From positions 663,501 through 727,500 of the forward strand of contig JAMZNZ010000002.1 in the NCBI GenBank assembly GCA_024178355.1: DNA of 64,000 bases, in the 5' to 3' direction. Made by a program: the position numbers and the translations under genes. The notes below the pieces were generated by a model, which was not told the origin of the DNA, ran no database searches, and saw only the letters and a list, made by a program, of their open reading frames with translations. Below are positions 26,456 through 27,809 of the stretch, in pieces. Source of the DNA: Maricaulaceae bacterium EIL42A08. GTDB taxonomy: Bacteria; Pseudomonadota; Alphaproteobacteria; Caulobacterales; Maricaulaceae. How positions within the stretch are numbered: the first letter of the stretch is position 1; every line of letters starts with the position of its first letter.

Positions 26456-27631
26456 TTACGCCGGACGCTCCACTGGCTTCAAGCGGTCTGAGCCGTAACA
26501 GCCAAGATTTCTCACAGTTTTTGCATGCGCGCCGAGCTTTTCCAGCGCACGAGCCACAGCTGGATCGTCCTGATGGCCTTCGATGTCGAGGAAGAAGAGC
26601 TGCTCCCAAGGCGCGCCAGCGATCGGCCGACTTTCCAGCTTGGTCATGTTCACGCCTTCCTGACGAAGACCATCCAGCGCATCCACCAGCGAGCCGGCCT
26701 CATCTGAGGTCACAAAAACCAGCGAGGTTTTACAGGGCAAAAGCGTGCTGGCCGGTTCCGGGTCCCGCGCCAGAGCTACAAAGCGGGTCTGGTTATCTTC
26801 CACATCAGAGATGCGCGGCTCGATCACATGCAGGCCAAACAGAGCCGCGGCTTCAGGGCCTGCGACTGCAGCAACCGAAGACCCTTCATCCATGGCCCGT
26901 TCAAGCGCGCGCGTTGTGGACGACACGGGCACCTGTCGCACATCAGTACGGGCATTGAGCCAGCGTTGCGCCTGGCGCAAAGCCTGAGGGTGGCCGTAAA
27001 TCACACGGACCGGACCAAGGTCGGTCGCCTTGCCCAGTACAGCATGCTCGATGCGGTGATAGTGCTCGCCAGCGATCTTCAGCGAGGTGTCACGCAAAAG
27101 GTCATAGACCTCCACGATGCCGCCGGTACCGGTGTTTTCAATCGGAACAAAGCCGTAATCGGCCTCGCCATCCGCCACAGCCCGGAATATCCCTGAATAG
27201 TCTCGCTTGATATCCGGCTGCAGCCCCGAATACCGCCCGGCAAAATGGCTATGGACGGCAAAGTGGGAATAGCTGCCCGGACCACCCAGATAAGCCACGC
27301 TGGCCTCAGATAGCATCTGGTCGTTCGCCCGGGCATCGAGGCCAGCGCGTTGGCGACGCAAAGAGTCATCGATAAGCAGTTGGAAAAGCTTTTCAACAAA
27401 GGTCGCATCAAGGCCGAGTGCCTCACCGACCGAAACACCACGTGCAATCACATCGGCTTCACGCTCGATATCACGAACGGGGGCTTTCTCCCCCGCCTTC
27501 AGCGCCCCAAGCGCCTCGCCCAGACGCCGGCGGTCTGCCAGAAGGCGCAGGATTTCCCGGTCTGCGCTGTCGATCGCCTGGCGCAGAGCGGCACGGTCCG
27601 ACGTCTGGTCAGGTTTGGCTGTGTTTGACAT
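26456..27631 (-). CDS. pheA: Bifunctional chorismate mutase / prephenate dehydratase (P-protein)
   Basis: Converts chorismate to prephenate and then to phenylpyruvate, the committed route to phenylalanine. In the 391-residue protein residues about 10-95 form an AroQ-type chorismate mutase (REILRLLADRRRLGEALGALK); 110-290 form the dehydratase (AYLGGPGSYSHFA, FVPIENTGTGGIVEVYDLL, and NQTRFVALAR with the catalytic Thr-Arg-Phe); and 300-385 an ACT domain with LESRP, the Phe-binding motif, implying feedback inhibition. Expression is probably controlled by the Phe/Tyr-rich leader peptide and terminator just upstream. An AGGAG stands 11 bases before the ATG. Confidence 0.95.
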   Translation of the reverse strand: MSNTAKPDQTSDRAALRQAIDSADREILRLLADRRRLGEALGALKAGEKAPVRDIEREADVIARGVSVGEALGLDATFVEKLFQLLIDDSLRRQRAGLDARANDQMLSEASVAYLGGPGSYSHFAVHSHFAGRYSGLQPDIKRDYSGIFRAVADGEADYGFVPIENTGTGGIVEVYDLLRDTSLKIAGEHYHRIEHAVLGKATDLGPVRVIYGHPQALRQAQRWLNARTDVRQVPVSSTTRALERAMDEGSSVAAVAGPEAAALFGLHVIEPRISDVEDNQTRFVALARDPEPASTLLPCKTSLVFVTSDEAGSLVDALDGLRQEGVNMTKLESRPIAGAPWEQLFFLDIEGHQDDPAVARALEKLGAHAKTVRNLGCYGSDRLKPVERPA

Positions 27632-27652: not shown

Positions 27653-27679
27653 AAAAAACCCCGCCGTTTCGGGCGGGGT
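27653..27679 (-). terminator. Attenuator terminator in the pheA leader
   Basis: On the minus strand CCCCGCC, loop CGAAAC, GGCGGGG and six T form a textbook intrinsic terminator 22 bases before pheA. Its 5' arm (plus the preceding GGA) is exactly complementary to GGGGTCC near the end of the leader peptide gene, so two alternative folds are possible. Confidence 0.88.
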
Positions 27680-27722
27680 CCTGATGGCTTGGTTTCGACA
27701 CGCGTCGCCTCAGCCGGACCCC
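27675..27722 (-). promoter_or_regulatory. pheA antiterminator pairing
   Basis: GGGGTCC at 27716-27722 (leader codons 17-19) can pair perfectly with GGACCCC at 27675-27681, which includes the 5' arm of the terminator stem. A ribosome stalled at the Phe/Tyr codons would leave the first arm free, form this helix and prevent termination; a ribosome reaching the leader stop codon would cover it and let the terminator form. Confidence 0.75.
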
Positions 27723-27772
27723 AAGGGATCAGCAAAGTAAAACCCGTAAAAATATGCGGCGCACGTCTTCAT
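27710..27772 (-). CDS. pheA leader peptide (20 residues, Phe/Tyr-rich)
   Basis: A short open frame upstream of pheA encoding M-K-T-C-A-A followed by YFYGFYF and ADPLGSG, i.e. three Phe and three Tyr codons within seven positions. This composition, the position before an intrinsic terminator and the mutually exclusive pairing identify it as a transcription-attenuation leader sensing charged tRNA-Phe and possibly tRNA-Tyr, analogous to enterobacterial pheL. There is no clear Shine-Dalgarno sequence; an in-frame ATG four codons further upstream (27784) is an alternative start, but the promoter geometry favours a leaderless message beginning at this ATG. It is too short for standard gene callers. 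Confidence 0.85.
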   Translation of the reverse strand: MKTCAAYFYGFYFADPLGSG

Positions 27773-27779
27773 AGGATGA

Positions 27780-27809
27780 AGCATGGCCACCATCGCTTCG
27801 GTCGGTCAA
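27780..27809 (-). promoter_or_regulatory. Candidate promoter of the pheA leader
   Basis: On the minus strand TTGACC (27804-27809) and CATGCT (27780-27785) are 18 bases apart. Transcription would start six to eight bases downstream, at about 27772-27774, which is on or next to the leader ATG. The -35 is a strong match; the -10 is only moderate. Confidence 0.45.

Follow-up and report, generated by a model that had tools for sequence, protein, structure and literature searches.

A putative attenuator with phenylalanine and tyrosine codons in its leader precedes pheA in a family of the Caulobacterales

The window analysed here, a stretch of 64,000 nucleotides, carries on its minus strand a pheA gene for a P-protein, in which chorismate mutase and prephenate dehydratase are fused, and upstream of it a short leader ORF, an intrinsic terminator and a helix that competes with the terminator stem. 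The features of the locus are as follows.

26456..27631, minus strand: pheA, P-protein with CM_2, prephenate dehydratase and ACT parts (Pfam PF01817, PF00800 and PF01842, all above their cut-offs)
27653..27772, minus strand: the whole element (leader, terminator and competing helix), read from 27772 to 27653 and ending 21 nt before pheA
27710..27772, minus strand: leader ORF MKTCAAYFYGFYFADPLGSG, with ATG at 27772 and stop TGA at 27712-27710; 20 codons, including 3 Phe and 3 Tyr
27804..27809, minus strand: -35-like element TTGACC of the leader promoter, assigned by its consensus
27780..27785, minus strand: putative -10 element CATGCT, placed by its spacing, 18 nt past TTGACC and 7 nt before the leader ATG
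27716..27722, minus strand: antiterminator 5' arm GGGGTCC, within the last leader codons
27675..27681, minus strand: antiterminator 3' arm GGACCCC, complementary to GGGGTCC and overlapping the terminator 5' arm
27653..27681, minus strand: intrinsic terminator, a hairpin of GGACCCCGCC and GGCGGGG followed by six T, read directly and showing two-sided changes in relatives

A sequence-only reading of this DNA had described a 20-codon leader containing Tyr-Phe-Tyr-Gly-Phe-Tyr-Phe and a terminator with six T's just before pheA, and direct reading of the minus strand bears both out. The leader frame (27772-27710) has the residues Y7 F8 Y9 G10 F11 Y12 F13, giving the run YFYGFYF; the terminator (27681-27653) consists of the 5' arm GGACCCCGCC (27681-27672), the loop CGAAAC, the 3' arm GGCGGGG (27665-27659) and TTTTTT (27658-27653), with the pheA ATG following at 27631. 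Among the 659 ATG ORFs of 10-34 codons in the window, the leader is the sole frame with at least five Phe or Tyr in ten codons (it is counted three times in the ORF list, owing to two in-frame ATGs upstream). Ten first-order Markov windows gave one ORF with at least five such codons and none with at least six.

A full-length P-protein is found in 45 of 119 genomes of the window's family, and in none of 160 genomes from four other families (within 200 genomes of the order), where no match is better than 4e-43; the weakest of the family's P-proteins stands at 8e-100. The named relatives of the window PheA are from Oceanicaulis and Alkalicaulis; against NCBIfam NF007910 (PRK10622) it scores 312.9 bits, under the cut-off of 577. 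A leader precedes the gene in 41 of the 45 genomes; 40 of these leaders were read whole, and that of G088 is interrupted by a contig end, its other copy being L187. A covariance model built from the 40 leaders of the window's family only (R1) matches at E<1e-5 in 47 of 137 family genomes, all of them within the 51 known P-protein genomes, which comprise the 45 from the protein search and six added by reading downstream of the leader; these six extra g9 leaders precede a frame that, by eye, begins like the chorismate mutase part. The other 90 genomes lie above E 0.003, the best value in a family genome without a P-protein match being 0.0035. The three parts of an attenuator that the sequence-only reading had recognized are conserved in relatives; among related Caulobacterales the element is kept in the P-protein genera of one family, but it is not order-wide.

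Four P-protein genomes gave no match to the element, L043 and L083-L085 of genus g7. At L043 (also L003; genome G004), a close relative with 84 % PheA identity, the leader and terminator are lost by eye, R1 gives no match, and the sequence directly upstream of pheA is unrelated. L083-L085 keep the P-protein, and the only hairpin terminator there stands farther upstream and apparently belongs to the preceding gene; three sister genomes retain the attenuator.

The element is absent from all 25 loci of stand-alone dehydratases. A looser screen, for four Phe, Tyr or Trp in ten codons, listed six of these 25 loci, none of them leader-like by eye. The window's own genome holds no second copy, the next best R1 value being 0.24 against 2e-17, and 32 other loci (L010-L041) yielded one doubtful case of a Phe/Tyr leader (L040). 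Candidate second sites in relatives at L182, L186 and L188-L193 proved by eye to be gene ends or interiors. Across 385 genomes of the class, R1 gave three matches at E<=0.001, of which only the window's own is real; L218 and L219 lie at unrelated gene ends and not before pheA. At L218:1501-1613 a gene end coding ..YGFNFGGPAG, together with a terminator, mimics R1 at 38.3 bits and is a false positive. Such mimicry by gene-end terminators, one 38.3-bit chance match among the 385 genomes, is what could be said for a chance short ORF lying beside the terminator of another transcript and regulating nothing. That explanation is contradicted by the conservation in 47 genomes and by the codon composition, promoter spacing and fold contrast described below, and we regard it as exceedingly improbable.

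The distance from TTGAC to the leader ATG is 35, 36 or 37 nt in all 40 leaders (17, 11 and 12 leaders, respectively), in a scan that permitted 22-47 nt to the start codon and after which the common ATG was chosen where leaders had extra in-frame ATGs. The base preceding this ATG is a pyrimidine in every leader (C in 34, T in 6), and a Shine-Dalgarno-like 4-nt core within 14 nt is absent in 38 of the 40. A promoter scan of the site returned no sigma-70 consensus. This arrangement suggests that the leader mRNA is probably leaderless, the transcript starting at or beside the first base of the leader ATG. That it starts on this A itself is the simplest reading, by analogy with trpL of Sinorhizobium meliloti, where, in the part of the account available, the attenuator transcript, rnTrpL, begins with the leader ATG (PMC7298713). 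Both would be alphaproteobacterial attenuators transcribed from the leader ATG, as the same partial account has it for trpL and as we infer for the window (PMC7298713); trpL senses Trp and controls trpE(G).

The terminator stem changes on both sides in relatives, for example at columns 115/133, which are C-G in 25 and U-A in 13 of the 40 leaders, although the U-A pair occurs mostly in one genus and the stem changes mostly separate one genus from the others. For the competing helix, the sequence-only reading had proposed seven base pairs. GGGGTCC and GGACCCC are indeed complementary in the window, but a fixed set of seven pairs is not conserved among the 40 leaders: two pairs are G-C in 39 and one is G-C or G-U in 38, while the remaining four are variable and show no covariation in the alignment. 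As judged from this alignment, what is conserved of the antiterminator is a core of about three G-C pairs, to which a variable part is added; a column test accordingly gives the antiterminator no support, because the core hardly varies and the other pairs do not covary. The stability of the segment as a whole is unremarkable (z -1.46). A terminator scan did not list the site at 27681-27653, a probable reason being that its rule allows the stem to extend into the T stretch.

We compared the alternative structures, as the sequence-only reading had suggested, by modelling the nascent RNA, ended at the terminator loop, while a ribosome masks 12 nt counted from the first base of the A-site codon. 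Over the 40 leaders, the terminator 5' arm has a mean pairing with upstream RNA of 0.72 for a ribosome stalled at Phe codons and 0.74 at Tyr codons, against 0.14 at the stop codon; for the window leader the values are 0.75-0.77 when stalled and 0.15 at the stop codon. The stop-codon values for a cover of 10 or 14 nt are mostly close to those for 12 nt. The difference between stall and stop is 0.56, compared with 0.13 in spacer shuffles (highest of 30 shuffle-set means 0.21), and exceeds the median of a leader's own shuffles in 39 of the 40 leaders, although for the window leader alone three of 30 shuffles switch equally. The stalled value by itself does not stand out, at 0.67 where shuffles give 0.56, and just three of the 40 leaders have a stalled value reached by at most two of 50 shuffles. 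L042, L044, L071, L082 and L086 switch poorly in the model, with stop values of 0.39 to 0.51. In the model, then, the competing antiterminator is governed by the position of the ribosome; both codon types therefore stand where a stall would free the antiterminator arm.

These observations suggest the following mechanism. Transcription would begin on the A of the leader ATG or on an adjacent base, with a ribosome following RNA polymerase closely. When either Phe or Tyr is short, the ribosome would stall on the YFYGFYF run, leaving the G-rich arm in the last leader codons free to pair with the terminator 5' arm, so that pheA would be transcribed. With both amino acids plentiful, a ribosome at the stop codon would cover the G-rich arm and the terminator would form. 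That the element is an attenuator, as the sequence-only reading had proposed, is very likely; joint sensing of Phe and Tyr by the leader, at which that reading had hinted, is likely. The full proposal, that pheA is under a ribosome-mediated transcription attenuator sensing charged tRNA-Phe and charged tRNA-Tyr jointly, we hold to be probable.

The short transcript or its peptide might instead act mainly in trans, as described for rnTrpL/peTrpL of S. meliloti, an action that would be compatible with attenuation. If the leader RNA is terminated and has an ATG at its 5' end, it would share the layout of rnTrpL, as far as the partial account of that RNA goes (PMC7298713). The leader, however, is seen only before P-protein pheA and not before the 25 stand-alone dehydratases, and the peptide ends vary by genus (GSG, GGG, GAVAG) while the cis fold contrast persists, which makes a mainly trans-acting leader very improbable.

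The codons of the leaders bear on which amino acids an attenuator would sense. The 40 leaders contain 122 Phe, 81 Tyr and no Trp among 847 codons; they were picked with at least three Phe plus Tyr, a choice that favours the sum but not Tyr over Phe. Background frequencies of Phe, Tyr and Trp are 4.2, 2.1 and 1.05 % in 32 window frames of at least 300 aa (not all genes), placing Tyr in the leaders about 4.5-fold above background. Tyr codons occur alongside Phe in 46 of the 47 leaders and Trp in none. The check by which the sequence-only reading could have failed, a lack of conserved leader codons or arms, came out in its favour: at one aligned position 34 of 40 leaders have Tyr, written both as TAT and as TAC, and at the following position 31 have Phe. 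Several other positions swap freely, aligned codon 21 being Phe in 18 and Tyr in 17 of the 40. Codon choice also differs from that of the pheA genes, with TAT/TAC at 68/13 in leaders against 155/166 in pheA (Fisher 4e-9) and TTT/TTC at 77/45 against 119/414 (Fisher 2e-17), the rows being related and kinship uncorrected in both comparisons. On these counts both the Phe and the Tyr codons look selected.

The free swaps are what a plain Phe attenuator would lead one to expect, one in which only the Phe codons matter and Tyr is tolerated, TTT and TAT being one change apart. The aligned codon that is Tyr in 34 leaders, with both TAT and TAC, speaks against this explanation, as do the enrichment of Tyr and its bias to TAT, and we consider it unlikely; further points on either side come from the tyrosine route and from the leaders of E. 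coli, below.

PF02153 gave no match to TyrA at E<=0.001 in the window's genome, which is 99.99 % complete, and the short TyrA of G034 and g9, used as queries, gave none there either. The genome does encode a phenylalanine 4-hydroxylase (PhhA; G000 C4), with 270.6 bits against TIGR01267, over the cut-off of 264.75, and 236.8 bits against NCBIfam NF008877, under the cut-off of 247. Its motifs HDVFGH and WYTVEFGL, which we take to hold the iron ligands, agree with 3tk2. PheA would thus supply both amino acids if Tyr is made from Phe by the hydroxylase, and pheA probably feeds both Phe and Tyr in the window's marine-type bacterium. A switch that reads both makes sense in a bacterium that appears to make Tyr from Phe, and the absence of a TyrA match together with the presence of the hydroxylase adds a reason for joint sensing that the sequence-only reading did not have. 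A comparable case is Dyella japonica, which in the portion of the GapMind account at hand has no confident prephenate or arogenate dehydrogenase, the hydroxylase being proposed as its Tyr route (PMC7311316). The two bacteria share this pairing of enzymes as that portion gives it; Dyella is a different bacterium, and the same portion describes no attenuator (PMC7311316).

The hydroxylase of genus g1 (L207:506-1666, G000:C4, a 387-aa frame) matches the profile in two pieces around an insert, and the match is a single piece for the hydroxylases of other genera. The same genome has a second CM_2 protein (L214:914-1312, G000:C1), which scores best with an isochorismate lyase model and next with a chorismate mutase-like one, below the cut-off in both cases.

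A hydroxylase match is present in 44 of the 47 leader genomes, and an accepted TyrA match in 17, leaving 30 without. A PF02153 match no stronger than 6e-6 was treated as no match, in some cases after reading and in others unread; the weak PF02153 or TyrA matches of G006, G020, G023, G042 and G013 are among those counted as TyrA-less unread. Other dehydrogenase models gave far better scores than PF02153 for three TyrA candidates, L215, L216 and L211 (G007, 26.6 bits with PF02153, just past its Pfam cut-off of 26.5), and a fourth, L212, was rejected by eye.

The sole Tyr-free leader of the 47, with 3 Phe and 0 Tyr, belongs to G034, which is 100 % complete and is the only near-complete leader genome with TyrA and without a hydroxylase match. 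In its genus-mate G017 the situation is inverted: this genome has PhhA and no TyrA match, and its leader carries 2 Phe and 3 Tyr. G285 and G290 also give no hydroxylase match, but they are 65 and 69 % complete. Within g9, Tyr codons number 3, 3 and 4 in the three genomes without a TyrA match and average 2.0 in the 16 with TyrA (Mann-Whitney p 0.018; 0.044 for all TyrA-less against all TyrA-bearing genomes), both tests ignoring kinship and the g9 contrast being one that may represent one subclade. Those 16 g9 genomes, of which 14 also match PhhA, nonetheless keep 1 to 3 Tyr codons, a point in favour of the plain Phe attenuator, whereas the one Tyr-free leader coming from a TyrA-bearing genome without a PhhA match counts against it. 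The Tyr codons therefore do not simply follow the loss of TyrA; they may accompany the hydroxylase route generally and have preceded that loss. A link between the Tyr codons of the leader and the Phe-to-Tyr route is plausible, with one clean contrast.

The closest known counterpart is the enterobacterial pheL-pheA (RF01859, Phe_leader), which likewise has a Phe-rich leader peptide, a terminator and a competing antiterminator before a fused chorismate mutase/prephenate dehydratase. E. coli pheL differs in having 7 Phe and no Tyr, where the window leader mixes 3 Phe with 3 Tyr; in the window, moreover, transcription probably starts at the leader ATG, and the leader ORF contains the G-rich arm. 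RF01859 scores 18.3 bits (E 1.1) on the window element against a gathering score of 55, so the element is not a member by Rfam's own score, though it should work alike; an Rfam scan of the whole window at gathering scores returned three tRNAs only.

In the opposite direction, R1 finds E. coli pheL with 44.1 bits (E 1e-9), the match beginning at the ATG. It also matches 22 of the 29 related pheA loci when E values up to 0.1 are allowed, with 20 of these 22 matches starting on the leader start codon; seven of the 30 E. coli-type loci exceed the 38.3-bit chance match. The 29 loci were taken from genomes of the phylum and should be gammaproteobacterial, since E. coli falls among them. In 14 of the 29, tyrA lies within the short flanks of pheA. 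Leaders were counted in E. coli and 23 of the 29 loci, and in none of L229, L234, L236, L238, L244 and L250. A further frame, one with Tyr codons, is present in L242, L243, L245 and L246, where the Phe frame was counted instead; the Phe frame is the R1 match from its ATG in L243, L245 and L246, and was chosen by eye in L242 and L239. The resulting 24 leaders contain 144 Phe and 0 Tyr, in keeping with the earlier remark that Tyr codons are unusual beside enterobacterial pheL. Drift from Phe to Tyr is therefore not the rule in leaders of this type, which tells further against the plain Phe attenuator.

In a tree of 91 P-proteins, the 45 of the family stand on one side of a branch (99/97) and adjoin the 30 E. 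coli-type proteins (100/99), with 16 other beta- and gammaproteobacterial P-proteins standing apart; the tree program warns of long branches meeting at these joins, likewise in an earlier tree with stand-alone dehydratases, and the root is a midpoint from which the direction of transfer cannot be read. With a homologous leader before a related P-protein, leader and gene look like a single cassette that shares ancestry with pheL-pheA in E. coli and its relatives. One acquisition of a leader-pheA cassette, with Tyr codons then added in this family, fits these data. We give about even chances to the wider history in which an E. coli-type cassette was rewired into a two-amino-acid sensor, Tyr codons being added as Tyr came from Phe via the hydroxylase, TyrA being lost in most genera, and the leader codons recording the pathway of each genome.

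Leaders that read two or more amino acids are known from thrL and ilvL of E. coli, and in the thr case Ile is made from Thr. The window leader would resemble these in reading several amino acids, with Tyr made from Phe as Ile is from Thr, and differs in the amino acids and genes concerned. Among the papers listed in searches of the open literature, none describes a Phe/Tyr pheA leader or alphaproteobacterial pheA attenuation. The joint Phe/Tyr attenuator would link the codons of a regulatory leader to a rearranged metabolism, the switch of the Phe gene reading both amino acids where Tyr comes from Phe. If this is true, leader peptides can help to predict hidden pathways, here a biosynthetic phenylalanine hydroxylase in TyrA-less alphaproteobacteria, and the genus-mates G034 and G017, with opposite enzymes and opposite leaders, offer a ready test. 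The element also adds a pheA attenuator that Rfam misses at its cut-off.

Three further candidate second sites in relatives, L183-L185, are leaders of other operons instead. L184 (G097:C17) has the leader MMSGLILLSIIIGLALAGALPTPV and L185 (G049:C14) the leader MTAGLITISIIIGAALLGALPTPV, both with terminators and both, by eye, before a threonine-dehydratase-like gene. On the minus strand of L183 (G038:C1), at about 1391-1529, the leader MTLGLLLLVLVLITSSITGAVGAPA and a terminator stand before a gene that by eye resembles ilvD, for dihydroxyacid dehydratase, an attenuator of the Leu/Val/Ile type.
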